A stretch of 20,964 bases of DNA from a virus. The position numbers and the translations under genes were made by a program. Location: IMG/VR virus record IMGVR_UViG_3300017917_002846, positions 1 to 20,964 of that record; one strand, given 5' to 3'. Shown here piece by piece: positions 4,925 through 20,657 of this stretch. The first letter of the stretch is position 1; every line of letters begins with the position of its first letter. The notes beneath the pieces were generated by a model. That model saw only the letters and a program-made list of their open reading frames with translations, searched no databases and was not told where the DNA came from.

Positions 4925-6256
4925 ATGTTTTATATAGTAGAGACTCAAGATCAATTATCACAACTCCATATCCAAGAGAGTTGCTACATTAATGTCATTC
5001 CACTATCATCAAACTATCACCCTATACTAACAGAAGTATCTTTAATTTACTATAAACCTAAATATGGTAAAGGATTAATCTTTACAATCAACCATAGTGA
5101 AGGATTTTACCTTGCTTTAGATAAAGTAAAAGAATTTCTTTTAAAACACGAATTAATTTACGTTTTAGATAAAAAAACAACATCACATTTAATAGGGGAA
5201 GAATTTTTACAAAATAAAGTACAAGATATAAATTTGCTTTCACTACACACCACCCAAACCACTCCGTATATACAGGAATGTCAAACAAGTATTCACACTC
5301 ATTTTGAAAGGCTTTATGGGGATAAACCTTATTTAAACTCAATTATCCCTATTTGTAAACATTATGAGACTCAAGAAAAAATTTATAATGTAGTACAACA
5401 ATGGATTGAAAAACAACATGAAATCTCGTATTATAACGAGGATTATATCAAAGTGTTCTATCGCATCGAAAAACAAGGTATAATGTTAAATATGCCTGTT
5501 TTTAACGAGAGTTTTAATGTAAATAATCCTAAATTCAATATAAAAGATGATAGAATTTACACTCAATTTAATTTGAATAATTTTACCTCAAGACCTTCAA
5601 ATTCATTCAATGGAATTAATTTTGCGGCTTTAAATAAAAATAACGGTTCCCGAACCGCTATTGTACCTCAAAATGATTATTTATTTGAGTTTGATTACGA
5701 TTCGTATCACCCACGTATTTTAGCAAAATTAATTGGATACGAGTTTGATGAGGCCTCGGTTCACACTCATTTAGGAAAAATGTATTTTAAAACAGAAGAA
5801 TTAACAGAGGAACAATATCAAGCCTCTAAAGAATTAACATTTAAACAACTATATGGAGGTGTTTTTGAACAATACAAAGACATACCGTTTTTTGCTAAAG
5901 TAAAACAATATACTGATAAGATATATCAAGATTATAATTCTCTGGGATATATAGAGTTAATAGGTGGGAGAAAATTATTTAATATTGAGAATCCAACTCC
6001 TCAAAAACTATTAAATTATATTATACAATCAGGAGAAACTTTTTATAACGTAAATTCGATAAAAAAAATATTAAAATATTTGGAAGGTAAAAAAAGTAAT
6101 ATTATACTATACACGTATGATTCAATTTTAATAGATTATAGTAAAGATGATGGAAAGGAGATATTAAAAGAGATAAAAAATCTATTAGAAAATAGCTTTG
6201 GATTCAAAGTAAATGCAAGTTATGGAATCAATTACAATAATTTAAATAAAATATAA
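4925..6256 (+). CDS. Family A DNA polymerase (compact, degenerate N-terminal domain)
   Basis: The 443-residue protein carries the palm/fingers motifs of family A polymerases. Motif A is DYDSYHPR with D257 and R264. The fingers helix has K302, F306 and Y310 in the K-xxx-F-xxx-YG spacing of E. coli Pol I K758/F762/Y766. Motif C is YDS with D399. Both metal-binding aspartates are kept, but the usual HDE is YDS and the motif A Glu (IEL) is replaced by YHP. Residues 1-about 160 sit where a 3'-5' exonuclease would be, yet I see no DxE or YxxxD exonuclease motifs, so proofreading is probably lost or supplied elsewhere. It follows a terminator and begins the replication block. T4 itself uses a family B polymerase. 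A weak AAAGG and the leader motif AAAGGTTAT precede the ATG. Confidence 0.85.
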   Translation: MFYIVETQDQLSQLHIQESCYINVIPLSSNYHPILTEVSLIYYKPKYGKGLIFTINHSEGFYLALDKVKEFLLKHELIYVLDKKTTSHLIGEEFLQNKVQDINLLSLHTTQTTPYIQECQTSIHTHFERLYGDKPYLNSIIPICKHYETQEKIYNVVQQWIEKQHEISYYNEDYIKVFYRIEKQGIMLNMPVFNESFNVNNPKFNIKDDRIYTQFNLNNFTSRPSNSFNGINFAALNKNNGSRTAIVPQNDYLFEFDYDSYHPRILAKLIGYEFDEASVHTHLGKMYFKTEELTEEQYQASKELTFKQLYGGVFEQYKDIPFFAKVKQYTDKIYQDYNSLGYIELIGGRKLFNIENPTPQKLLNYIIQSGETFYNVNSIKKILKYLEGKKSNIILYTYDSILIDYSKDDGKEILKEIKNLLENSFGFKVNASYGINYNNLNKI

Positions 6257-6265
6257 ACAAAAGTT

Positions 6266-6733
6266 ATGATTAATACACAGACTATAAATTCTTCATATAT
6301 TTATTTCCAGTATGACATTGATGTCACTCACCCAGATTTAAAAGATATGAATAAACTATTTTGTACGTTTTCAAGTAAAGATGACTTGGAATTTACTTTA
6401 TCTAATATAAGAACTAAATACGCAGTATTATTTAATAAAATATTTGTGTTGTACATTGCTTCAACAGAGGAATATGTCTGTACTTATAATATAGATCATA
6501 ATAATTTAGTTGATGGATTATTACCTAATACAATTTTATTGCATAGAAAAAAGGAATCAAATACACTTTATACCATAAATGCTTTAAATGATTTAATTAA
6601 ATCATTAAATGGTGGTGTATTGAATACTTCTTATATGGTAAATTGGAATGATTATAAGAACTGCATATTATTAACACACGCAGGTGAATTAAGAAAATTA
6701 GATACTAAAATATATAAAATTATTACTTTATAA
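6266..6733 (+). CDS. Hypothetical protein downstream of the polymerase
   Basis: This 155-residue protein has no signal peptide, membrane helix or recognised motif. It alternates short beta-like segments (YIYFQYDIDV, KIFVLYIASTEEYVCTYNID) with a helix near ALNDLIKSL, and ends in a basic, hydrophobic strand (KLDTKIYKIITL). The start codon is fused to the leader motif AAAAGTTATG, which also opens the ssDNA-binding protein gene. It begins 9 bases after the polymerase stop and 4 bases before the next gene, so it is in the same transcript. A replication-accessory role is only suggested by position. Confidence 0.6.
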   Translation: MINTQTINSSYIYFQYDIDVTHPDLKDMNKLFCTFSSKDDLEFTLSNIRTKYAVLFNKIFVLYIASTEEYVCTYNIDHNNLVDGLLPNTILLHRKKESNTLYTINALNDLIKSLNGGVLNTSYMVNWNDYKNCILLTHAGELRKLDTKIYKIITL

Positions 6734-6737
6734 AAAT

Positions 6738-6953
6738 ATGGAAAATTTTAATTTAAAGAAAGCAAAACAACAATTATTAGAAGGTGAAATGAGTAGCAGA
6801 GATACTTTAATTAGATATTTTAATAATTATCCAAAATCACAAGCTCTTGCTACTAAAATCGCTGATAATTTAGGAGAAGCTTTAACAGATGATGTAGTAA
6901 AAGATATTCTAGCTTTAGCTGATGGATATGGTTTTGAAACCCCACAAAGATAA
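6738..6953 (+). CDS. Small protein with LLE|G capsid-type leader
   Basis: The 71-residue product starts MENFNLKKAKQQLLE|GEMSS, a longer variant of the leader shared by the proteins at 4156 and 4463. L-L-E then G fits the T4 gp21 cleavage rule. The body is mostly helical: RDTLIRYFNNYPKSQALATK, then ADNLGEALTDDVVKDILALAD. It lies in the replication block rather than beside the other leader proteins, starting 4 bases after the previous stop. The next gene has its own candidate promoter. I do not recognise the body. Confidence 0.6.
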   Translation: MENFNLKKAKQQLLEGEMSSRDTLIRYFNNYPKSQALATKIADNLGEALTDDVVKDILALADGYGFETPQR

Positions 6954-6969
6954 TTACTTTATAAAAATA

Positions 6970-7001
6970 TTTGGCTGTCTGAGATATCTTTATTATATTT
7001 A
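6970..7001 (+). promoter_or_regulatory. Candidate Bacteroidota-type promoter upstream of the SSB gene
   Basis: TTTG (6970-6973), 20 bases, then TATATTTA (6994-7001), in an 88-base gap before the ssDNA-binding protein. Spacing and sequence match the Bacteroidota -33/-7 form apart from the final base. A leader of roughly 35 bases would follow, ending in AAAAGTTATG. A dedicated promoter fits the high demand for this protein. Confidence 0.5.
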
Positions 7002-7041
7002 CGATCACATAAATTAGTTTTAACATTTAAATAAAAAAGTT

Positions 7042-7878
7042 ATGAATTTAGACTTGATTCAAAGCAAGCTGAACGCCCTATCTGCACCTAAAGGAGGTGG
7101 GCAAAAATCTAACGAAAAAGCATTAAGCTTTTGGAAACCAACTGTTGGAAAAGCCTTAGTAAGGTTTGTTCCTTCAAAGTACAATCCCGAAAATCCATTT
7201 AGAGAATTATATTTCCATTATGGGATTGGAAAAAGAACTATTATTTCACCTTCAAACTTCGGTGAAAAAGATCCAATTATCGAATTTGCAAAAGAACTTC
7301 GCAAAACTAAAGAACCTGAAAACTGGAAACTAGCTAAAAAACTTGAACCAAAAATGAGAGTTTTTGCTCCTGTTATCGTTAGAGGTGAAGAAGATAAAGG
7401 AGTACGTTTGTGGGAATTTGGTAAAGAAATTTATCAATCATTACTATCATTAGCTGCTGATGAAGATATCGGAGATTTTACTGATATTATGGAAGGTAGA
7501 GATATGAAAGTTGAAACAGTAGGACCTGAAACTACAGGAACTGAATACAACAAATCTCGTATCATGCCTGCTTTAAAAACTTCAACACTAACTGATAATA
7601 GTGATGATTTAAACAAATGGATGGAAAATCAACCAGATCCAGTTTCATTCTCAAAACGTTATACTTTTGAAGAAATTAAACAATTCTTAGCTGAATGGTT
7701 AAATCCTGAAGAAGAAGCTAAGGAAGAAGAAAGTATTGTAGATGGTCCAGCTACTGATTTTGAACCTACAAATGATCCTAAGTTTGCATTAAGTTCTAAA
7801 CCAACTGCTAATAAAGCATTCCCTCCTAAAAAGGAAATTCCAACTGCGGATGAATTTGATGATTTATTTAAAGACTAA
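7042..7878 (+). CDS. gp32-like single-stranded DNA-binding protein
   Basis: This 278-residue protein coats ssDNA at the replication fork and during recombination. The features fit T4 gp32 (301 aa): a short N-terminal helix, a glycine/lysine turn (PKGGGQKSNEK), a central OB-fold-sized region with aromatics and basics (FWKPTVGKALVRFVP, YFHYGIGKRT), and a C-terminal tail that turns acidic and ends EFDDLFKD, the site used by gp32 to recruit partners. The protein has no cysteine at all, so the gp32 Cys/His zinc site is missing. Order (SSB, recombinase, nuclease, helicase) supports the call. It has its own candidate promoter. An internal AAAGGAGGTG at 7090-7099 resembles a strong Shine-Dalgarno but has no start codon at useful distance. 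Confidence 0.8.
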   Translation: MNLDLIQSKLNALSAPKGGGQKSNEKALSFWKPTVGKALVRFVPSKYNPENPFRELYFHYGIGKRTIISPSNFGEKDPIIEFAKELRKTKEPENWKLAKKLEPKMRVFAPVIVRGEEDKGVRLWEFGKEIYQSLLSLAADEDIGDFTDIMEGRDMKVETVGPETTGTEYNKSRIMPALKTSTLTDNSDDLNKWMENQPDPVSFSKRYTFEEIKQFLAEWLNPEEEAKEEESIVDGPATDFEPTNDPKFALSSKPTANKAFPPKKEIPTADEFDDLFKD

Positions 7879-9998: not shown

Positions 9999-11378
9999 AT
10001 GGTTGCATTCGCTAGTTTAAAAGATTATGGACCTTCATTTCAAATAAAAGTCATTAATTCTTTATTAAAAAACAAAGCATTCTTACTTAATGTTAGAGAT
10101 ATTATTGATGATAATCATTTCGAACATCCTGGTCATAAATGGGTTTTAACTGAGACATTAAAATATTTTGACAAGTATCATACTACACCTACCTTAGATA
10201 CTTTAAAAATTGAAGTTAAAAAGATAGATAATGATATTTTACAAACTGCTGTAAAAGAACAGTTAAAATTAGTTTATACTACTCAATATGATGATCAAGA
10301 ATATGTTGAAGAAGAATTCTCTAATTTTTGTAAAAATCAATTACTAAAAAACGCTTTATTAGATTCAGTAGATTTACTAAAAAACGGACATTACGATGAT
10401 ATTAGATTATTAATTGATAATGCCTTAAAAGCAGGAGCTGATAAAAACTTAGGTCATGAGTATGTTAAAGATATTGAAGATCGATATAGAGAAGAAAGTA
10501 GAAAAGTAGTACCTACACCTTGGCCTTTAATTAATGATTTATTACAAGGAGGATTAGGAAACGGTGATTTTGGATTAATATTTGGAGGACCTGGTGGTGG
10601 TAAATCATGGGCTTTAGTTGCATTAGGAGCTACAGCAGCTTCATTAGGTTATAAAGTAATACATTATACTTTAGAATTAGGTGAATCTTATGTTGGTAAA
10701 AGATATGATGCTTTCTTTACAAGTATTCCTGTTAATTTAATTCATAACCATCAAGATGAAGTTAAGGATAAATTAAAAGATTTTGATAATAATGTTATTA
10801 TTAAAGAATATGCTCCTAAAATTGCTTCATTAACTACTATTAAATCTCATATCCAAAAAACAAAAGATTTAGGTTTTACACCTGATTTAATTCTAATTGA
10901 TTATGTTGATTTATTAAAACCACCTTCTAAACGTAGTAGAGATAGAAAAGAAGAAATTGATGACTTATACTACGGAACTAAAAGCTTAGCCAAAGAACTA
11001 GATTTACCTATTTGGTCAGTATCACAAGTAAATCGTTCAGGTGCTAAAGATGAGGTAGTAGAAGGAGATAAAGCAGCTGGATCTTATGATAAAATGATGG
11101 TGATTGATTTTGGTATGTCTCAATCACGTTTAAGAAAAGATAAAACAGAAGGTACTGGACGTTTCCACATCATGAAAAATAGATACGGAATGGATGGTAT
11201 GACATACTTTGCAGAAATTGATACTTCAACAGGTCACATTGTTATGGATGAAAGAGAGATAGTTGATGAAACTCCTGCTGAAAATTCGAAACCTTCATTT
11301 GGAGGAATTACAACTAATGAGAAAAATGCAATGAGTGATTTGTTCAAACACTTCACTTTAAGCAATGATACTGAATAA
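9999..11378 (+). CDS. Replicative DNA helicase (gp41/DnaB-like)
   Basis: The 459-residue protein has a DnaB-type layout. An N-terminal helical domain (about 1-150) precedes a RecA-like motor with Walker A GGPGGGKS (196-203), a catalytic Glu in YTLELGE (E226 or E229), Walker B LILIDYVDLL (297-306) and SQVNR (342-346), the DnaB motif that contacts the nucleotide. It should form a hexamer unwinding DNA 5' to 3' on the lagging strand, as T4 gp41 (475 aa) does. The C-terminus (about 415-459) is polar and probably flexible. No separate primase gene is in the window. The leader motif AAAAGTTAT lies just upstream, with the start 11 bases after the previous stop. Confidence 0.88.
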   Translation: MVAFASLKDYGPSFQIKVINSLLKNKAFLLNVRDIIDDNHFEHPGHKWVLTETLKYFDKYHTTPTLDTLKIEVKKIDNDILQTAVKEQLKLVYTTQYDDQEYVEEEFSNFCKNQLLKNALLDSVDLLKNGHYDDIRLLIDNALKAGADKNLGHEYVKDIEDRYREESRKVVPTPWPLINDLLQGGLGNGDFGLIFGGPGGGKSWALVALGATAASLGYKVIHYTLELGESYVGKRYDAFFTSIPVNLIHNHQDEVKDKLKDFDNNVIIKEYAPKIASLTTIKSHIQKTKDLGFTPDLILIDYVDLLKPPSKRSRDRKEEIDDLYYGTKSLAKELDLPIWSVSQVNRSGAKDEVVEGDKAAGSYDKMMVIDFGMSQSRLRKDKTEGTGRFHIMKNRYGMDGMTYFAEIDTSTGHIVMDEREIVDETPAENSKPSFGGITTNEKNAMSDLFKHFTLSNDTE

Positions 11379-12382: not shown

Positions 12383-14113
12383 ATGAGTATACAAGTAGAT
12401 ACAACCAATTGGACTAAAGGGAAAAATTACCCTGAATGGATGGATCAAATAGGATTAGATATTATCTCTAAAGGATATCTTTTACCTGAAGAAGATGCAT
12501 TTAAAGCATTTTTAAGAGTAAGTAAAGCATCAGCAAGAAGATTAAAACGTAAAGATTTACAACCTTTCTTTTATGAAGCAATGGTTAAAAATTGGTTATG
12601 TTTAGCATCTCCTGTATTATCAAATATGGGAACAGAAAGAGGAATGCCTATTTCATGTTTTGGAATTGATGTAGAAGATTCAATTGAAGGAATTGCTGGT
12701 TCTAACTCAGAGCTAATGAGATTATCATCTCAAGGTGGTGGAGTAGGTGTAGGTTTATCTCGAATCAGAGGTAGAGGTAAAGCAATCAAAGATAATGGAG
12801 TAAGTGAAGGTGTAGTTCCATGGGCTAAGATATTTGATTCAACTATTTTAGCAACTAACCAAGGTTCAGTACGTAGAGGAGCAGCTTCCGTAAACTTAAA
12901 CATCAATCACCCAGATATTGAAGAATTTTTAGGAATTAGACGACCAAAAGGTGATGTTAACAGACAATGTTTGAATCTTCATCAATGTGTTGTAATTGAT
13001 GATGTTTTTATGAATAAACTTGAAGAAAGAGATCCAAAAGCATTAAAATTATGGGGTGAAATTCTAAAAACACGTTTAGAGACAGGTGAACCTTATATTA
13101 TGTTTGAAGATAATGTTAATAATGCTAATCCTCAACCATACAAAAACAATAATTTAAAAGTAACAATGACGAACATTTGTTCTGAAATTGCACTTTACAC
13201 AGATGAATTACATTCATTTATTTGTTGTTTATCTTCATTGAATTTAGCAAGATGGGATGAGTGGAAAGATTATAAGTTTGAAAATGGGATGGATTTACCT
13301 GAACTATCAACTTGGTTTTTAGAAGGTGCATTACAAGAATTTATTGATCGTGCTAAAAACATTAAATTCTTTGAAAATACTGTACGTTCAGCTGTTAAAG
13401 GTAGAGCAATTGGTTTAGGAGTATTAGGATGGCATACATTTTTACAATCTAAAAACTTACCATTTACAGGTATTCCTGCTGATACTTACACTAGAATGAT
13501 GTTTGAATTTATTGAGCAAGGTGCTTTAAGAGCCTCTAAAGAACAAGCAGAATTGTATGGAGAACCAGAATGGTGTAAAGGAACAGGATTACGCCATACT
13601 CACCATTTAGCAATTGCCCCTACTGTATCTAATGCTCATATTTCAGGTGGTGTTTCACCATCAATTGAACCAATTCCAGCTAATGTTTATAACTTAAAAA
13701 CAGCTAAAGGTGTATTTATTAAGAAAAATAAAATACTAGAGCAATTACTTGAATCTAAAGGATTTAATATTGATAGTATTTGGGATCAAATCTTAAAAGA
13801 TCAAGGTTCAGTATTAGGATTACCTGATTATATCTTATCTCAAGAAGAAAAAGAAGTATTTTTGACATTTAAAGAAATTAATCAATTAGATTTAGTAAGA
13901 CAAAATGCTATTCGTCAAAAATATGTAGACCAAGCAATATCTTTAAATTTATGTTTTGATCCTAATGATACTCCTAAATTTATTAGTACAGTACATAAAG
14001 AAGCACATAAACTAGGAATAAAAACGCTATACTATCTACGCACTGAATCAGTACTACGTGGTGACAATTTAAATAGAACCGCTGAAAGCGCATGTATTTC
14101 CTGTGAAGGTTAA
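12383..14113 (+). CDS. nrdA: Ribonucleotide reductase class I, large (alpha) subunit
   Basis: This 576-residue catalytic subunit shows the complete active site: C92 (PISCFG), N264-C266-E268 (TNICSEI), the partner cysteine at C281/C282 (ICCLSSLNLA), the radical-transfer tyrosines Y550/Y551 (LYYLRTES) and the C-terminal redox pair C571/C574 (ESACISCEG). It is far shorter than E. coli NrdA (about 760 aa), mostly because the N-terminal ATP-cone is missing: the sequence goes directly into the catalytic N-terminal region. Overall dATP activity inhibition through a cone is therefore not expected. That suits a phage that wants dNTP synthesis kept on. The intact C-terminus argues against truncation. 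Confidence 0.93.
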   Translation: MSIQVDTTNWTKGKNYPEWMDQIGLDIISKGYLLPEEDAFKAFLRVSKASARRLKRKDLQPFFYEAMVKNWLCLASPVLSNMGTERGMPISCFGIDVEDSIEGIAGSNSELMRLSSQGGGVGVGLSRIRGRGKAIKDNGVSEGVVPWAKIFDSTILATNQGSVRRGAASVNLNINHPDIEEFLGIRRPKGDVNRQCLNLHQCVVIDDVFMNKLEERDPKALKLWGEILKTRLETGEPYIMFEDNVNNANPQPYKNNNLKVTMTNICSEIALYTDELHSFICCLSSLNLARWDEWKDYKFENGMDLPELSTWFLEGALQEFIDRAKNIKFFENTVRSAVKGRAIGLGVLGWHTFLQSKNLPFTGIPADTYTRMMFEFIEQGALRASKEQAELYGEPEWCKGTGLRHTHHLAIAPTVSNAHISGGVSPSIEPIPANVYNLKTAKGVFIKKNKILEQLLESKGFNIDSIWDQILKDQGSVLGLPDYILSQEEKEVFLTFKEINQLDLVRQNAIRQKYVDQAISLNLCFDPNDTPKFISTVHKEAHKLGIKTLYYLRTESVLRGDNLNRTAESACISCEG

Positions 14114-14275
14114 TTATGAAAAAACTATAACTAAAATACCGGTGGAGCAGCTATCCCATTTGCTTTTACCAAAATCATTAAAATCTCTAAAAGAATTTTA
14201 AAATATTATTTTTTAAATATAGCCTCAACCTTAAAAAGTTATAAAGAATATGAAGTAAAGTAATATTTATATTAA
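14114..14275. other. Intergenic gap between nrdA and the lectin gene
   Basis: The 162 bases form the largest gap in the window. They contain AAAAGTTAT (14234-14242) and TAATATTTAT (14261-14270), both recurring intergenic motifs. An ATG at 14116 is followed by a stop after four codons. A different frame from GTG 14103 to TAA 14201 could encode 32 residues (including KIPVEQLSHLLLPKSLKSL), but GTG use and lack of context make it weak. No convincing terminator or tRNA fold was seen. A promoter for the accessory block probably lies here. Confidence 0.4.
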
Positions 14276-15280
14276 ATGAAACTTGATCTGCAACATATAA
14301 CCAAATTGTTATGCCTCCTTATTCTCACTATAGGAGGCATTTCTTTCTCATATAGCCAGACATTTACTCATTCTGGATTTATTTACGGAGGTAACGGAAC
14401 AGGAATACCAGGAGTATATGTCTATCTGTATAAGAGGACTACTCCTACATTAACTGGATTTACTTCTCAACAAAACTATAATGGCCACTCCTATTATAGA
14501 TCAACATCTTCTATGACATGGACAGCTGCAAGACAGGCTTGTGCTAATATGGGAGGATATTTAGTGACAGTTACTTCAGCAGCTGAAAATAATTTTATTT
14601 TTAATCTATGGCCTTCAGGATGGATAGGATTAACAGATGAAGTAGTAGAAGGGCAATGGAGATGGGTAACAGGAGAACCATACTCTTGGACTAACTGGAA
14701 CCCAGGAGAACCTAATAATGCTGGTAATGAAGATTATGTACAATTTGTTGGAGGAGGTAGATGGAATGATTTACCTAATGTAGCTTTACCTTATGTATTA
14801 GAGTTTGATTATATAGTTACTTTTACACCTTGGGAAGTAGCAGCAGTTTCAATAACTGATTTAACAGGTAGATATTCATTTTCAATGCCAACAAATCCAT
14901 CAGTAGAGTGGTACATAACATTCTCAGCTCCTTCTTTACCTACATTACAAGTAAGTGATGCTCAAGCAGCAAATCAAATAATACTTGGTAATACAGCTCA
15001 AAGAAGTAGAGACTTTTATAGATTTGATGTTAATAACGATTCAAGATTTACAGTATCAGATGTATACTCAATATATGCTAGAAGAAATGGTTTATTAAAT
15101 TCATTTCAAGCATCACCTCCAGATAGTAGAATATTTACTACATCTCAGTGGACCTTAATAACAAATAACATAGCTAATCTAAAAGGAAGTCATCCTGGAG
15201 TCCAATCAATAACAATTAATAATCCAGTATCTGGAGGAGTTTCAACTTATTACATAACAAGAGTAGGGTATAATAATTAA
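14276..15280 (+). CDS. Secreted C-type lectin with dockerin-like module
   Basis: The 334-residue protein has a signal peptide (about 1-28, ending SYSQ). Residues about 33-55 start an immunoglobulin/transthyretin-like beta-sandwich (GTGIPGVYVYLY) that resumes at about 183-220 (PWEVAAVSITDLTGRYSF). A C-type lectin domain (about 71-178) sits between. It has WIGL (116-119), the Ca2+/mannose-type EPN triplet (145-147) and WND (163-165). The mature protein has a single cysteine (C89); the usual partner before the final Glu is replaced (YVLEF), so the standard disulfide is absent. A dockerin-like calcium loop follows: D251, N253, D255, D262. The last about 110 residues resemble the C-terminus of the next protein. 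Likely role: exported sugar binding, anchored by a cohesin. No T9SS tail is seen. Confidence 0.8.
   Translation: MKLDLQHITKLLCLLILTIGGISFSYSQTFTHSGFIYGGNGTGIPGVYVYLYKRTTPTLTGFTSQQNYNGHSYYRSTSSMTWTAARQACANMGGYLVTVTSAAENNFIFNLWPSGWIGLTDEVVEGQWRWVTGEPYSWTNWNPGEPNNAGNEDYVQFVGGGRWNDLPNVALPYVLEFDYIVTFTPWEVAAVSITDLTGRYSFSMPTNPSVEWYITFSAPSLPTLQVSDAQAANQIILGNTAQRSRDFYRFDVNNDSRFTVSDVYSIYARRNGLLNSFQASPPDSRIFTTSQWTLITNNIANLKGSHPGVQSITINNPVSGGVSTYYITRVGYNN
14311..14340 (+). promoter_or_regulatory. Start-proximal intragenic hairpin in the lectin gene
   Basis: ATGCCTCCT (14311-14319) pairs perfectly with AGGAGGCAT (14332-14340) across a 12-base loop, 35 bases into the gene, within the signal-peptide codons. 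The 3' arm carries AGGAGG. Downstream TTTCTTTCTC is T-rich, so partial termination or attenuation is conceivable. Confidence 0.5.
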
Positions 15281-15305
15281 CAAATATTTATTACAAGACA
15301 TAAGA

Positions 15306-15327
15306 GTGCGAAAGCACCTGGTTTTTT
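15306..15327 (+). terminator. Weak candidate terminator or RNA hairpin
   Basis: GTGC-GAAA-GCAC (15306-15317) forms a 4-bp stem closed by a GNRA tetraloop, followed by CTGG and six T (15322-15327). The short stem and displaced T-tract make it a weak terminator at best. It lies in the 76-base gap after the lectin gene and may set different levels for the two genes. Confidence 0.35.
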
Positions 15328-15356
15328 GAATTACTAACAACTTAAATAAAAAAGAA

Positions 15357-16451
15357 ATGAAAAAATTATTTTTAGCTTTAAGTTTGGTTTTAGTATCATT
15401 AACAGGATTTTCGCAAACTACAGCTCCTGATGCTACTAAACCTTACTTAATCTTCGACGCAACATATGAGTTGCAACCAGTGGGGTCAGGAACCCCAACA
15501 AATGTTACAATCCATTATGACAATGCAGGAGCAGTAAACATGAAAGCTGTTCAGTTTAGATTCTGGTATGACAAAAACGTATTTGCTTCTCCAACTGTAA
15601 CTTATACAGGAACAGAAACAAACAACTATTTTACAACTAGAGTAAACACAACTGAAGGAAATGTAACAGTTACTTGGGTTTACACAGGTGCTAATGCTTC
15701 TTTCAATATAGCAGATGGAGCTATGTTTAATGTAGCATTACCTTTCCAAGCATCTTATCAAAATGGAGCAGTTACCAACATGTCATTTACAGGAGCAACT
15801 TCTTTTCCTGCTTTTGCTGCTTTAGCTGATGGTACAGATACAACTTTAGGATTGCATAACTATGGTGGGGCATTCACAGAACCAGTATTTCAATATGCTG
15901 CTACATTCTCAAATTCACCCACTAACCCAGCTGAAAATATCCCAGTTGTATTACAAAAATCTTCAAATGGAACAACTTGGGTAGATGTTGCTACAGTTAA
16001 TACTAACACAAGTGGTACAGCTAATTTCAATACATTCTTAGATCAATCATACTGGCAAATTAGAGTTAAAGTAAATCCAGGATTAAATGCTTCTACTGCT
16101 TTAACAGCGGCTGATGCTAATATGATTTCAGAAATGGTAGCTGGAAACGTAGCAGTAACAGGTACTCAATTTTATACAGCAAATACAAACAGATCTTCAA
16201 ACGGAATCACAATCTCAGATGCTTATATGGTATTTGGAAGATTAGCTCAAGGTACATCTTCTTACCCAGGTGTTCCTGATGTGTTATTCTTTACAGAAGC
16301 TCAATACAACCAAATCGCTGCTTCAGCAACAGATCTATCATCAACAATTCCAGGTCAGGTTACATTCCTATCAGCAAACATTAATAACACAACGTCAGGT
16401 AATTATTATTTGTTAGTCCCAGGAGATGCTAACGGAACAGGATTAAACTAA
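15357..16451 (+). CDS. Secreted cohesin-like protein with dockerin-like C-terminal module
   Basis: A signal peptide (1-20, ending GFSQ) precedes a cohesin-like beta-sandwich at about 28-172 (VTIHYDNAGAVNMKAVQFRF, WYDKNVF, then GNVTVTWVYTG). A second sandwich follows at about 178-243 (IPVVLQKSS, TWVDVATVNTNTSG, YWQIRVKV). Residues about 248-298 look like a degenerate dockerin pair (LTAADANMISEMVAG, then SSNGITISDAY). The final part ends YYLLVPGDANG and stops. Residues 178-364 parallel the lectin protein without its lectin insert. The pairing loop has lost most calcium-binding acids, so Ca2+ binding is doubtful. Carrying both domain types would suit a scaffold or chain-forming subunit. The next gene starts 1 base after the stop, so translation is likely coupled. 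Confidence 0.7.
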   Translation: MKKLFLALSLVLVSLTGFSQTTAPDATKPYLIFDATYELQPVGSGTPTNVTIHYDNAGAVNMKAVQFRFWYDKNVFASPTVTYTGTETNNYFTTRVNTTEGNVTVTWVYTGANASFNIADGAMFNVALPFQASYQNGAVTNMSFTGATSFPAFAALADGTDTTLGLHNYGGAFTEPVFQYAATFSNSPTNPAENIPVVLQKSSNGTTWVDVATVNTNTSGTANFNTFLDQSYWQIRVKVNPGLNASTALTAADANMISEMVAGNVAVTGTQFYTANTNRSSNGITISDAYMVFGRLAQGTSSYPGVPDVLFFTEAQYNQIAASATDLSSTIPGQVTFLSANINNTTSGNYYLLVPGDANGTGLN

Positions 16452-16452
16452 G

Positions 16453-17196
16453 ATGAGATTAATACCGTACTTAATACTAATAGTAATACTCACATCAGTA
16501 CGACCACTGAATAACCCGGTACAATTTACTGTACCGGGTCTATCAGTGCCTGCTAGTACTACAATTGATTTACCTGTATCTATCCAAACAAATGGAAATA
16601 CTTTAGGTAGTCTAGAGTTTGAATTAAGATACGACCAAAATATATTACAATTTACAGATATGATTATATCTGAAAAAGCACAAGAATGGCTAACATACAC
16701 AATGGATGGAGGAAACGGTAGAGTAAGATGGGGTGGATATGATAAAACATATGGTCAATATTCAATTACTAATCCTACAGAATTATTTATAGTTCGTTTT
16801 ACAGTTTTAGATCCTAACTGGACTCAAACTCCTATAACAATAGGAAGAAAGACAGCAGGAGATGTTCAAGGATGGGATATGCCAGTTTTAAATACAGATG
16901 GGTATATCAACCAAAATAGAATGGCATTACCTCTAGCAGAAGATGGAATTCATGGAAAAGCCTACCCAGTACCTACAAATGACATAGTAACAGTTGAAGC
17001 ATCTCTACCATACAGTGGAGATTATCAAATTATATTATATGATTTGAATGGTAATGTATTACGGAATAAAAAACAAAGATGTGCTAAGGGAATGATATCA
17101 TTTGAAGAAACTTTACATGCTTATCCAAGCGGTATCTATTTATTACAAATAGCAAGTGATAAATTTGCTAAAACACTAAAACTAATTAAACAATAA
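16453..17196 (+). CDS. Cohesin-like protein with T9SS type A sorting domain
   Basis: The 247-residue protein has a hydrophobic N-terminus (about 1-17, MRLIPYLILIVILTSV) as export signal. A cohesin-like domain follows at about 22-153 (PVSIQTNGNTLGSLEFELRYD, then GRVRWGGYDK). The end (168-247) is a T9SS type A C-terminal domain: YPVPTND, YQIILYDLNGNVL, YPSGIYLLQI and KTLKLIKQ. In Bacteroidota this tail directs export through the type IX machinery and attachment to the cell surface. I infer that the phage uses host T9SS to display a cohesin that could hold the dockerin-bearing lectin. The signal peptide is short and lacks a clear cleavage motif. A 10-bp hairpin lies near its start. Confidence 0.8.
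   Translation: MRLIPYLILIVILTSVRPLNNPVQFTVPGLSVPASTTIDLPVSIQTNGNTLGSLEFELRYDQNILQFTDMIISEKAQEWLTYTMDGGNGRVRWGGYDKTYGQYSITNPTELFIVRFTVLDPNWTQTPITIGRKTAGDVQGWDMPVLNTDGYINQNRMALPLAEDGIHGKAYPVPTNDIVTVEASLPYSGDYQIILYDLNGNVLRNKKQRCAKGMISFEETLHAYPSGIYLLQIASDKFAKTLKLIKQ
16514..16539 (+). promoter_or_regulatory. Start-proximal intragenic hairpin in the T9SS cohesin gene
   Basis: ACCCGGTACA (16514-16523) pairs perfectly with TGTACCGGGT (16530-16539) across a 6-base loop, 61 bases after the ATG. This 10-bp stem is the strongest hairpin in the window. No T-tract follows. It lies in codons for the end of the export signal and the start of the cohesin domain. Confidence 0.6.
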
Positions 17197-17200
17197 AGCT

Positions 17201-17527
17201 ATGTCAGAAGAAACAAACAACGATGGAACTTGGTCAGGATTGAAAAAAACAATCATTGGAACTTTAACTACTGTTATTGGTGGTGGAGGTATTTGGTTAT
17301 CAACAACTTTATTTGGAGGTCACTCTGATGATAAAGAAGAAACTAAAACAGAACAGGTAGCTCAACCAGCTGCTGCTCCAATTGTGGTAAATGTTTCAAA
17401 CAACAATACAAACCAACAAAAACAACAATCTAACAATTCTAACTCCAATAATGCAAAGCAACAAGCAGCTCCAGCTCAAGCAGCACCTGCTCCTGCTCCA
17501 GTTAAGAAAGAAGAAGAATCATGGTAA
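17201..17527 (+). CDS. Small membrane protein with Q/N- and A/P-rich tail
   Basis: The 108-residue protein has one membrane-type segment (about 17-38, TIIGTLTTVIGGGGIWLSTTLF) with a glycine run. It is followed by an acidic/basic linker and a low-complexity tail: Q/N-rich at about 64-87 (SNNNTNQQKQQSNNSNSNN), then an Ala/Pro/Gln stretch and a charged end (KKEEESW). No signal peptidase site is evident; the short polar N-terminus suggests the tail faces the periplasm, but orientation is not determined. It starts 4 bases after the T9SS cohesin stop and its end overlaps the csgG start by 7 bases (ATGGTAA). The coupling implies a linked function. I do not recognise a family. Confidence 0.65.
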   Translation: MSEETNNDGTWSGLKKTIIGTLTTVIGGGGIWLSTTLFGGHSDDKEETKTEQVAQPAAAPIVVNVSNNNTNQQKQQSNNSNSNNAKQQAAPAQAAPAPAPVKKEEESW

Positions 17528-18234
17528 GAAATTTATTAATATTTATAACTTTATTTCTAAGTTTAGTATCCTGTGCTCAAAAATTAGGCTCTACTAAAAC
17601 TGAAGAGTATAAAGCTGATTTCGAAAAGAAGCAGTCTTTAGAAGTTGTATCTGACTATACTGACACAATCCAAATACCAATCCAAGTACTAAAGATTGGT
17701 ATTAATGAAGAACTATATGAAATGTACCCTGAGCTAAAAGATAAAAGAGTTGGTTTAGGTGTAGCAAACATAGTACTGGAATATTTAGAATCTACTGGTA
17801 GATTTATATTTACAGAAGATAGAGAAGAGATAAAACAAAAAATGATAGCTCAACATAAAGCATCAGCTAAAGGAATCTCTTCAAATGAAATAAAAGTAAA
17901 AGGAAATGTTGTACTAGCTCGATACTTTGTGTACATAGAGGTATATGATTTCTCAGTAGGTGAGGATGAAGAAGTAGCAACATCAGGAATTGAAATAAAA
18001 CAAAAAACTATATTAGGGTTACAAGTAAGATTTGTGGATGCACAAACTGGTGAAATAATTACTGGATCAGGATCTGGTGAAGCAGTTACAGTGAAGAAAG
18101 CTAATCTACTTGATGGTATAGATGATATTAAATTTAATCAATCTACTATAGGTATCTCTACAAAAAAATCATTAGAAACAGCTTGTTCAAGAGTAATTTC
18201 TAAATTGATTAAAAAAGGGATATTTCGTAGTTAA
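17521..18234 (+). CDS. csgG: CsgG-family outer-membrane lipoprotein
   Basis: This 237-residue protein has a lipoprotein signal (about 1-17) with lipobox LVSC and lipidated C18. CsgG-family segments follow: RVGLGVANIVLEYLESTGRF (76-95), FTEDREEI, ARYFVYIEVYDFSVG and LQVRFVDAQTGEI, then a helical end (KKSLETACSRVISKLIKKG). In curli systems CsgG forms a nonameric outer-membrane pore that exports amyloid subunits. Here the two stretches matching its pore-forming beta-hairpins look shorter than in the E. coli protein (277 aa), so a full barrel is uncertain. Residues after the Cys lack the acidic export signal of Bacteroidota surface lipoproteins, so the periplasmic face of the outer membrane is more likely. 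It overlaps both neighbours. Confidence 0.75.
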   Translation: MVRNLLIFITLFLSLVSCAQKLGSTKTEEYKADFEKKQSLEVVSDYTDTIQIPIQVLKIGINEELYEMYPELKDKRVGLGVANIVLEYLESTGRFIFTEDREEIKQKMIAQHKASAKGISSNEIKVKGNVVLARYFVYIEVYDFSVGEDEEVATSGIEIKQKTILGLQVRFVDAQTGEIITGSGSGEAVTVKKANLLDGIDDIKFNQSTIGISTKKSLETACSRVISKLIKKGIFRS

Positions 18235-19808
18235 TGAAAAAATGGATATTATTATTTTCACTATTTTCAGCACTGACTTCTTATGGCCAGTACAATTACA
18301 CTTATACAGACCCATGTACATTAGTGCGAAAAAGTATTTACATACCTGCTGGAGGTGGTGTAACAGTTAATTACTTTGGGAACACTAATATTTTTCAATC
18401 TTTAGATTTTCAAAATGGTGTTTTTGATACTTGGATAAATCAAGTAGCTCAAATAAATTCTTCTTCTCCATGCCAAGAAATAACAACTACTTTAGTAAAT
18501 AATATAAATAATATAACGGTAGCTAATACTTTAACTATAGTTACAAATGTTATATCTGTTACAAACGTAGCACAATCTATTACTTCAATAGGAGGTTCTA
18601 TGAGTGAATCTACGACTGCAACAGCAGGAAGTGTTACAAATTCCTCTTCAACAGGGGGTAGTACTAACCAAAACTCAAAAGATAACAAAAAAACAAATCC
18701 AAATACATCTACAGGAACGAATATAGGAACTGCTGGAACCGGCGGGACAGGTAACCAAAGTCAAGGAGGTCAAACCAATCCCAACCCTTCTGGTGGAACA
18801 CCTACTGGAACTGCTGGAACAGGCGGGACAGGTAACCAAAGTCAAGGAGGTCAAACCACTTCTAACCCTTCTGGTGGAACACCTACTGGAACTACTGGAA
18901 CAAGCCCCGCAAGTAACCAAAATCAAGGAAGTCAAACCACTTCTAACCCTTCTGGAGGAACACCTACACAACCTTCATCAGGAACACCCCAACAAGGAGG
19001 AGAAACTACAAATCCAAATCAACCAACTTCGACAGGAAGTCCTACGTCTGAGTCATCTGTAGAAGGATCAAGCGGTAGTGGAAACAATTTAGCTAACTCT
19101 TTATCAAACGCAATAGACGGAGGATCAGCCGATGGAGGAAGCACTTCTGGAGGTGGTAAAAAATCAAAATCAACTGCTAAAAATGCAGGAAGCTTAATTG
19201 CTTCAGGAGACATAGTAGCTATTGCAAATACTGATCAAACTCAAAATTTTAGATTTGTAGGAAGTGTCACTCACGCTAATACAAGAGGAACTAGAATTAA
19301 AGGAGTACTATTTAATTTTACTTCAGGAGTTAATAACTTAAATGTTACTTTCTATAAATCTTGGATTAACAAGTCTAAGAAGCTAAATACAGTAGGTGCT
19401 CAATCCTTTATGATGGATTTTGATAAAAACTTTTTTAGTACAACCACAGTATTGGAATCTTATAAAGTAAATAATAAATTAACAGCAATGTTTGGTTTAA
19501 ATTTTACAGCAGGTAAAATGGGAGAAAGATCTTTACTAAATATGTCTGCTGTAGGTGGCGCTCATACTAATTTTAAAATAAATAATAGAATCAACACCAG
19601 CCTACTTGTGTTAGGAGTGTATTCTCCATTTACTCAGTTTTATGAAGGTAGGTGGTGGGATGCTGGGATATTAGCTGTACCATTTAATTCATGGGATATA
19701 AAAATAACAAAAACATTTAAATTTAATGTAAGCTTCACTGGCGTATATCAAGTTGGTGAATCATTCTTAAATTATCAAGTATTAACAGGAGGTAAACTAA
19801 ATTTTTAA
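18234..19808 (+). CDS. Repeat-rich exported protein with outer-membrane-type C-terminus
   Basis: The 524-residue protein starts in the csgG stop (TAATG). A signal peptide (1-18, ending TSYG) leads to a domain with two Cys (C28, C80; possible disulfide), then a Val/Asn/Thr-rich helix or beta stretch. A long low-complexity Gly/Thr/Ser/Asn/Gln linker (about 120-315) includes three 27-residue tandem repeats (165-245). Residues about 318-524 have alternating hydrophobic/polar strands (LTAMFGLNFTAG, FKFNVSFTGVYQVG) and end in Phe, as outer-membrane beta-barrels do. It could be a barrel partner for the CsgG-family protein, with the repeats as a spacer or surface arm. No family is recognised. The linker is GC-rich compared with its neighbours. 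Confidence 0.65.
   Translation: MKKWILLFSLFSALTSYGQYNYTYTDPCTLVRKSIYIPAGGGVTVNYFGNTNIFQSLDFQNGVFDTWINQVAQINSSSPCQEITTTLVNNINNITVANTLTIVTNVISVTNVAQSITSIGGSMSESTTATAGSVTNSSSTGGSTNQNSKDNKKTNPNTSTGTNIGTAGTGGTGNQSQGGQTNPNPSGGTPTGTAGTGGTGNQSQGGQTTSNPSGGTPTGTTGTSPASNQNQGSQTTSNPSGGTPTQPSSGTPQQGGETTNPNQPTSTGSPTSESSVEGSSGSGNNLANSLSNAIDGGSADGGSTSGGGKKSKSTAKNAGSLIASGDIVAIANTDQTQNFRFVGSVTHANTRGTRIKGVLFNFTSGVNNLNVTFYKSWINKSKKLNTVGAQSFMMDFDKNFFSTTTVLESYKVNNKLTAMFGLNFTAGKMGERSLLNMSAVGGAHTNFKINNRINTSLLVLGVYSPFTQFYEGRWWDAGILAVPFNSWDIKITKTFKFNVSFTGVYQVGESFLNYQVLTGGKLNF
18726..18968 (+). repeat. Three tandem 81-bp repeats (27-aa unit)
   Basis: Units at 18726-18806, 18807-18887 and 18888-18968 encode GTAGTGGTGNQSQGGQTNP..., ending SGGTPT. 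Units 1 and 2 are nearly identical; unit 3 has drifted (GTTGTSPASNQNQGSQTTS). The period is a multiple of three, so copy-number change keeps the frame. Further partial copies (PSSGTPQQGGETT) follow. Confidence 0.9.
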
Positions 19809-19811
19809 ACT

Positions 19812-19880
19812 ATGAAAAAACTAAATGAATTATTTGAAAAATTTTATGACACAATTTCTAATTTCCTTTTTGGAAAATAA
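19812..19880 (+). CDS. Amphipathic micropeptide (22 aa)
   Basis: An ATG 3 bases after the repeat-protein stop opens a 22-residue frame: MKKLNELFEKFYDTISNFLF, then G, K and TAA. The spacing L4, L7, F8, F11, Y12, I15, F18, L19, F20 places hydrophobic residues on one helix face, with K/E/N/D on the other. It is too short for a cleavable signal plus mature protein and too amphipathic for a plain membrane anchor. It could be a membrane-active or chaperone-like peptide of the operon. The next gene begins 13 bases on. Tight spacing supports translation, but there is no other proof. Confidence 0.5.
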   Translation: MKKLNELFEKFYDTISNFLFGK

Positions 19881-19893
19881 ATAATTAAATTCT

Positions 19894-20331
19894 ATGAAAA
19901 AATTAATCTTTATTTTATTATTCCCTATTTTCATATTTTCACAAGAGTGTTACACTGTTAAAGAAATAACTTCAAGCGCTCAAATTGAAGAAATGAATCA
20001 AAAAAGAATTATATTTGGTATTAAACAAATGGCTGAAGAATTAATATCTGAAAAATATCAAGTATGTCAAGATGGTAAACCTGTTATTATTGATGTTTAT
20101 TCTATAGAAGCACCTTCTAAAGGATTATCTTTAGGACCATTTGCTAAAAAGAAAAAAGAAACTATAGTAAAAATAAAAATATTGTTAGGTGATAAAGAAT
20201 TAGTTGGTGAAGGGTTAGCAGAGATATCAACACAATCAATGTTTTTAGATTTAAATGATGAAAATTTACCTTTCAACAAAACTTCATTTGCATCAGCTAT
20301 TAAAAAAGCATTAGAATCAGCTTTAAATTAA
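19894..20331 (+). CDS. Secreted small protein resembling the CsgG C-terminal region
   Basis: This 145-residue protein has a signal peptide (about 1-16, FPIFIFSQ) and a Cys at 19 without a lipobox. The region ELVGEGLAE (102-110), then PFNKTSFASAIKKALESAL (126-144) parallels GSGSGEA, then KFNQSTIGISTKKSLETA in the CsgG-family protein upstream: FN, then K/Q, then T/S, then KK-x-LE-x-A. A basic patch KKKK (85-88) precedes a beta strand (TIVKIKILLGD). I infer a periplasmic protein with a related alpha/beta fold, possibly a partner or a shrunken paralogue. It is not like CsgE or CsgF that I can see. It ends the accessory block. Confidence 0.55.
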   Translation: MKKLIFILLFPIFIFSQECYTVKEITSSAQIEEMNQKRIIFGIKQMAEELISEKYQVCQDGKPVIIDVYSIEAPSKGLSLGPFAKKKKETIVKIKILLGDKELVGEGLAEISTQSMFLDLNDENLPFNKTSFASAIKKALESALN

Positions 20332-20405: not shown

Positions 20406-20657
20406 ATGGCATTTAAAGACATCTTTAAAAAATCAAATGATTACAATGAAAAAACAATAATTGGATTTTTATCATTCATGGTGATGGTAGGAGCAATTGT
20501 TGTTGATTTAGTAACAGGCTACTACGGTAGACCATTAGAATTAAACGAATATATTTTTGATGCTTTCATGTACATCACATTAGGATCGTTCCTTCCAGAT
20601 GTATTAGAGAAGTTTGCAGGATTTAAAAACGGAAAAAAAGAAAGTAACGAAGAATAA
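20406..20657 (+). CDS. Putative holin (two membrane segments)
   Basis: The 83-residue protein has two hydrophobic segments: about 18-41 (IIGFLSFMVMVGAIVVDLVTG) and about 50-66 (IFDAFMYITLGSFLPDV). A short charged N-terminus and a Lys/Glu-rich cytoplasmic-type tail (KNGKKESNEE) flank them. Two segments, under 100 residues, a basic/acidic tail and position 7 bases before an endolysin are the usual marks of a small holin, which permeabilises the inner membrane at the end of infection. No family is recognised by motif, so the call rests on topology and context. AAAAGTTAT and ATATTTA both occur in the 74-base gap upstream. Confidence 0.65.
   Translation: MAFKDIFKKSNDYNEKTIIGFLSFMVMVGAIVVDLVTGYYGRPLELNEYIFDAFMYITLGSFLPDVLEKFAGFKNGKKESNEE

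Follow-up and report, generated by a model that had tools for sequence, protein, structure and literature searches.

A phage-coded block of cohesin scaffoldin, dockerin-tailed lectin and putative envelope genes in T4-like phages of Bacteroidota

The remodelling of the host surface that phages drive during lytic infection is poorly understood. This report deals with a block of genes, g1 to g7, carried by the IMG/VR virus record IMGVR_UViG_3300017917_002846, whose positions 1 to 20,964 (20,964 bases in all) are referred to as the window; it is a piece, 21 kb long, of the genome of a T4-like phage of Bacteroidota. The block encodes a small scaffoldin with cohesin modules, an exported lectin with a dockerin-like tail, and a group of predicted envelope proteins, and its architecture is both solid and unusual.

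The scaffoldins of cellulosomes, such as CipA and ScaB, resemble the block in the cohesin fold, in the succession of cohesin, X or immunoglobulin-like (Ig-like) module and dockerin, in the pairing of exchangeable heads with a dockerin tail, and in having a scaffold directed to the cell surface. As in other cohesin-dockerin systems, the cohesins reside in the scaffold, and dockerin modules occur on separate effector proteins. The block differs in that it is phage-coded, its effectors are lectins and not glycoside hydrolases, a sorting tail of the type IX secretion system (T9SS) replaces the S-layer or sortase anchor, and its dockerin tails keep one intact calcium loop, with docking predicted from sequence. 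With the T9SS type A cargo of Bacteroidota it shares a sorting tail that scores over the curated cut-off, although here the tail is carried by a phage and joined to cohesins.

A second group of relatives comprises the phage curli operons reported in pelagiphages (PMC7029224, PMC9599517) and in phage Melnitz (PMC9004378), while one marine Bacteroidetes virus genome also has csg genes (PMC7198788). These reports proposed, but did not show, that the csg genes serve in aggregation, in "sibling capture", in defence against superinfection or in lysis (PMC7029224, PMC9599517, PMC9004378, PMC7198788). Like the block, these operons are envelope modules that T4-like phages of marine or fresh water encode and that include a CsgG-fold protein; unlike them, the block has a g5 without pore hairpins and lacks CsgF, CsgA/B and FecR, a scaffoldin and lectins taking their place. 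The fold of g5 and the absence of membrane hairpins also recur in PelC, FlgT, LptE and further periplasmic proteins resembling CsgG, some of which form rings or plugs beneath outer-membrane barrels, a likeness at the level of the fold only. A cultured counterpart is the same block in Flavobacterium phage vB_FspM_immuto (hereafter immuto), genes gp013-gp019; in GenBank, gp013 is annotated as a lectin and gp015 as a cohesin already, and the others are labelled "hypothetical". No description of a phage cohesin-dockerin system, or of the immuto block as a system, was found in the open-licence literature, which is weak evidence of novelty.

The scaffoldin and its dockerin-tailed lectins

The central components of the block are g2 (15357..16451, + strand) and g3 (16453..17196, + strand), which, as judged from their relatives, are the front and back halves of one small scaffoldin that is whole in many phages and split in the window. 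The product of g2 has a signal peptide, a cohesin fold (about residues 22-175), an Ig-like module and a dockerin-like module, and that of g3 has a cohesin (residues 23-131) and, at residues 171-247, a sorting tail of T9SS type A. Both g3 domains are over the Pfam cut-off (cohesin E 2e-8, tail E 8e-10), and the tail reaches 38.6 bits with TIGR04183 against a curated cut-off of 23, as type A cargo does; a preliminary description of the window had already named a T9SS-sorted product here, correctly.

In distant relatives, g2 and g3 are fused into a single protein of ~630 residues (51 open reading frames, ORFs, 20 of them non-redundant), with the order cohesin, Ig-like module, dockerin, second cohesin and T9SS tail. 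Pfam recognises Por_Secre_tail (PF18962) in 20/20 of these fused scaffoldins, Cohesin in 16/20 and Dockerin_1 in 15/20, and their dockerin module matches the ScaB dockerin in the PDB (profile E 3e-4). The cohesin of g2 is assigned solely through its homologue inside the fused protein, modelled for one representative (L051) with a mean predicted local distance difference test score (pLDDT) of 67 and mostly 76-92 in the front domain. Residues 26-180 of this model have the cohesin fold (Z 14.8 to 6kgd), and its top Foldseek matches are to the cohesin-X-dockerin fragment of CipA (3kcp, 4fl4), in which the modules are ordered as in g2. In the clade of the window, a stop and a frame change part g2 from g3, leaving 1 base between them, and g3 has acquired its own signal-like start. 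The two cohesin-like proteins of the preliminary description are therefore upheld as cohesins, by Pfam in g3 and by the fused homologue in g2, but not as independent proteins, being parts of one split scaffoldin.

The effector of the window is g1 (14276..15280, + strand), an exported protein composed of a C-type lectin domain (residues 79-166, with EPN and WND motifs; Pfam E 1e-16, far over cut-off) and a C-terminal dockerin-like tail (residues 210-334; 14903..15277, + strand) with one intact calcium-type loop, DVNNDSRFTVSD, at about 15026-15061. Both the lectin and the dockerin-like loop had been recognised before, and the latter is upheld, as the last ~125 residues of g1 are homologous to the dockerin module of the fused scaffoldins (hhalign 99.6%, E 1e-23) and match g2 as well (profile E 5e-13). 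Compared directly, the g1 tail has no match to Pfam Dockerin_1, and in the PDB the dockerin tail matches best a nuclease that is not related to it and has a single calcium-type loop. The tails keep the pattern DxNxD...D, i.e., the second calcium loop only, in place of the two loops of a classical dockerin.

The heads borne by this tail are diverse: C-type lectin, laminin-G with lectin, Ig_7 with lectin, PA14, GEVED, or of unknown type, with no glycoside hydrolase match, as found on cellulosome enzymes, among the heads scanned. Lectins account for 36 of the 46 unique heads, and EPN and WND are present in 36/36 of them, a combination that points to the mannose-type calcium site of C-type lectins. 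Comparison of these sequences indicates that the binding head is exchanged between phages, with the dockerin tail always kept, and that the swapping is recent. In one pair of loci (L074 and L073), g5 is 95% and the scaffold cohesin 86% identical, and the heads are unrelated; conversely, the lectins of the window and L069 are 79% identical, their tails only 39%. A further locus (L007) holds two dockerin-tailed genes in tandem (5485-6753 and 6757-7761), with unrelated heads and tails that are 50% identical, and this is a duplication followed by head replacement.

Distribution of the block among phages

Two independent scans converge on the same block. A scan of IMG/VR for relatives of g5 returned 116 loci, 80 of which were kept; nearly all of the latter carry the block, and the order g2-g3-g4-g5-g6-g7 plus a lectin/tail gene is near-constant across them, far beyond what chance would give. 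Identity to the relatives is highest for g5, at 65-91%, and falls to 25-40% for g2 and g3. A separate scan with the dockerin tail alone gave 121 loci (80 kept), and in 76 of the 80 other block genes lie within 3 kb; in the remaining four, the flanking sequence is short or the contig ends there. The block is also found on jumbo-size virus contigs (L040 and L067, 306-309 kb), where g2 is 34-37% identical to that of the window. Overall, it is widespread in aquatic Bacteroidota phages, with at least 116 loci on contigs of up to 309 kb, and it is conserved in 80 phage contigs or more as well as in immuto. The closest cultured relative is immuto, a T4-like phage of 160 kb.

Long records show where the cohesin and dockerin modules are located. 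In 12 phage records of 46-309 kb, every cohesin belongs to the scaffoldin, and the dockerin modules are restricted to this protein and one or two heads. This distribution bears on the idea that the products decorate the virion, or serve as soluble fibres or adhesins in the lysate, for which it may be said that phage fibres often contain lectin and Ig-like modules and that the genes may be expressed late, alongside the structural ones. The block, however, specifies signal peptides and a T9SS tail, it has no annotated structural gene, and no cohesin or dockerin module lies outside it in these 12 records. Because the modules are confined to the scaffoldin and the heads, virion proteins do not appear to be involved, and we consider this explanation very unlikely. 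The earlier proposal that the phage encodes a complex of several proteins destined for the envelope or surface is well supported by the cohesin, dockerin and T9SS modules, the strong synteny, and the lack of any virion gene with these modules.

An origin of the block in the host genome was considered and rejected. Among 196 genomes of the order, at most three have relatives of g5, g6 or g7; two of these are clear homologues on short, phage-like contigs (L104 and L105), and the matches of A3 elsewhere are generic T9SS tails. The contig L104, 9 kb long and placed in the bin of a bacterial genome, has a match to a RusA-like resolvase and to one phage family of unknown function, and is probably phage. 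It has a distant version of the block, in the order cohesin plus T9SS-tail gene, PorV/PorQ-family protein, membrane/coiled-coil gene, g5, g6 and g7. As the PorV/PorQ-family T9SS accessory gene (L104:1574-2443, NCBIfam E 3e-20) adjoins the gene with the cohesin and the T9SS tail, this contig supports a T9SS-linked delivery.

The envelope proteins g4 to g7

The remaining genes of the block encode proteins that are predicted to reside in the envelope. The first, g4 (17201..17527, + strand), has an N-terminal membrane helix, a Pro/Ala/Gln-rich low-complexity linker and a conserved acidic-W C-terminus, and is probably anchored in the inner membrane. It is followed by g5 (17521..18234, + strand), the most conserved gene of the block, which encodes an exported CsgG-fold protein without the membrane hairpins of CsgG; by g6 (18234..19808, + strand), an exported protein with a conserved N-terminal domain, a variable low-complexity linker and a conserved C-terminal region of ~220 residues; and by g7 (19894..20331, + strand), a small exported protein that profile comparison shows to be remotely paralogous to g5 (hhalign 95%, E 2e-8).

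The preliminary description took g5 for a CsgG-family lipoprotein and noted that CsgG exports amyloid subunits; a phage-coded curli (type VIII) secretion system, as known from pelagiphages (PMC7029224, PMC9599517), is one alternative reading of the block. The fold itself stands: the model of g5, of low confidence (pLDDT 56), matches CsgG with a Foldseek E of 6e-8 and a VIA Z of 13.1 to 6lqh. Against this reading, the CsgG of pelagiphage HTVC008M scores 5e-53 with the Pfam CsgG profile and g5 only 0.01, and no profile match was found between g5 and true phage CsgG. In a distant alignment of 18 sequences, g5 lacks ~10-11 residues of HTVC008M CsgG at each of the two hairpins, including the GGVGARYFGIG signature. 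The lipid-bearing cysteine is not conserved either, as a lipobox-like motif is present in 23/54 homologues, the copy in the window having a possible one (LVSC). No CsgA/B repeats, CsgF or CsgE were recognised by Pfam in the block genes, and the g6 profile has no match to phage CsgF. The curli or amyloid reading of g5 was thus rejected, as hairpins and partners are absent, and the type VIII system, largely refuted already, is left with hardly any probability. A curlin-like amyloid nature of g6 was rejected as well, since its repeats form a hydrophilic linker and not curlin repeats, and it matches no family. In other respects the preliminary description was largely right: its ORFs, lectin, dockerin, cohesins and T9SS tail stand, and what falls is the CsgG lipoprotein with its curli implications.

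PDB profile searches gave nothing useful for g5 and g6, and for g7 only weak matches to ribosomal protein S1, taken as chance. Full-length members of g6 nearly always end in F or L, and its C-terminal ~220 residues might, as a guess, be an outer-membrane beta domain or barrel. The best reading of the group is that g5 and g7, as two periplasmic CsgG-fold proteins, act together with g6, which is putatively in the outer membrane.

The same genes could alternatively act in lysis, with g4, g5, g7 and g6 forming a spanin-type bridge across the envelope that is timed with holin and endolysin, and the lectin and scaffoldin being accessory. The g4/g5 overlap resembles that of Rz/Rz1 and, together with the topology, is suggestive of a spanin; a role in lysis was proposed for the CsgG of phage Melnitz (PMC9004378). 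In the window, a holin-like gene and the endolysin follow the block, 44/81 loci have an endolysin no more than about 7 kb from g5, and in some loci the holin-like gene is inside the block. The position and strand of the endolysin, however, vary across loci and include upstream and inverted arrangements, and the annotated holin and an endolysin of immuto are at 43-45 kb, away from the block, with another endolysin at 22 kb. As this explanation also leaves the cohesins, the dockerins, the T9SS tail and the swapped lectin heads unaccounted for, we judge it unlikely.

Timing, proposed function and surrounding genes

The timing of the block is suggested by a short motif, ATATTTAT, which stands just 5' of g1 (14263..14270, + strand) and 5' of g2 (15284..15291, + strand); further intergenic copies on the coding strand of the window are at 11378 and 20331. 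Among 36 relatives, 25 have it within 110 bases 5' of g2 or the scaffoldin, versus 1.8 expected. The copies in immuto are biased to the coding (+) strand (31 versus 4 on the other), and occur 5' of both gp013 and gp014, and 5' of 13/53 structural but 0/26 small early genes (Fisher p 0.004), these classes having been assigned by hand from the annotation. The motif is a candidate for a late signal in these phages, possibly a promoter, and because it precedes g1, g2 and the structural but not the early genes of immuto, it suggests late expression of the block. Read on the opposite strand, it looks like the late box of T4; both the window and the immuto genome (L082, L107, L089, L090) have it between genes.

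Upon this architecture, which is well supported, we advance a hypothesis of function. With a probability of about 0.5, the block is a phage-made, cellulosome-like display system for the envelope of the infected cell, which presents lectins for adhesion late in infection. The scaffoldin g2+g3, with its two cohesins, Ig-like module and dockerin, would be handed to the type IX secretion system of the host by its sorting tail; effectors that join a dockerin tail to a sugar-binding head of exchangeable type, here g1, would dock onto the cohesins, and the infected cell would become coated with lectins. A dedicated envelope assembly, with g4 in the inner membrane, g5 and g7 in the periplasm and g6 in the outer membrane, may help to deliver or hold the scaffold complex. 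Expression would probably be late, and the likely use is adhesion, by which infected cells, their debris or the progeny would stay close to polysaccharide or to new hosts. The more specific picture of a late extracellular organelle, in which a T9SS-exported scaffoldin, swappable docked lectins and their own envelope machinery (g4-g7) glue infected cells, neighbours or progeny together, is put forward tentatively, at somewhat less than an even chance.

Several observations weigh against this display hypothesis. Its weakest link is the crossing of the outer membrane by g1 and g2, both of which have a signal peptide and no T9SS tail; they could travel piggy-back on g3 or exit via g5, g6 and g7. 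The calcium loop of the g2 dockerin is degenerate in the clade of the window, and tails as little as 35% identical are found beside near-identical scaffolds, a divergence that could mean loose docking or no specific docking. The scaffoldin-like protein of L105 shows no T9SS tail, and a beta-barrel in g6 has weak backing from the hydrophobic moment (z 0.8), g6 matching no family. As for timing, the count of ATATTTAT in the window (7, all on the + strand) is at chance level, and the motif is also found 5' of nrdB.

Surface lectins could also be used for superinfection exclusion or receptor masking, by covering the polysaccharide of the host or capturing incoming phage. Surface-directed lectins with fast head exchange would fit an arms race over glycans; exclusion genes, however, are usually early, whereas the evidence from ATATTTAT points late, and to this use we assign only a small probability. 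A role in defence or anti-defence was rejected, as PADLOC gave no match.

If the display hypothesis is true, phages would have in the extracellular organelle their own equivalent of the cellulosome, serving adhesion, and cohesin-dockerin assembly would be extended to viruses and to lectin display. The exchanged heads would then provide a library, made by nature, of sugar-binding domains swapped on a single scaffold. Whether a lytic phage makes its host adhesive is directly testable, because one phage with the block, immuto, is in culture with its host, Flavobacterium sp. LMO8.

Recomputed from the window, the ORFs, gene order, + strand and tight spacing agree with the preliminary description: g2 and g3 are 1 base apart, g3 and g4 are 4 bases apart, and g4/g5 and g5/g6 overlap by 7 bases and 1 base, respectively. 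Upstream are T4-like replication genes, encoding a family A polymerase, a gp32-like single-stranded DNA-binding protein, a RecA-like ATPase, an exonuclease and a DnaB helicase, and then the ribonucleotide reductase genes, with nrdA ending at 14113, ahead of g1. On the 3' side, a small membrane (holin-like) protein (20406-20657, after g7) precedes the start of the endolysin. The block thus lies between reductase and lysis genes, as first described, a location that holds for the window and varies, with respect to lysis genes, in relatives. The holin-like gene itself changes position, being located after the block in the window, between g4 and g5 elsewhere, and beside nrdA in L028 and L029; the relatives considered include L030, L076 and L079. 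No structured RNA or tRNA was found in the window.

Two other regions of immuto deserve mention. At 49172-59988 (L107), this phage, which codes for mannose-type lectins, has a run of glycosyltransferase, aminotransferase, epimerase and GDP-mannose-dependent mannosyltransferase genes, and may therefore edit surface or virion glycans as well. It also encodes queuosine/7-deazaguanine genes with DpdA, GroEL/GroES and a thymidylate synthase (L082, L107), and modification of its DNA bases is likely.

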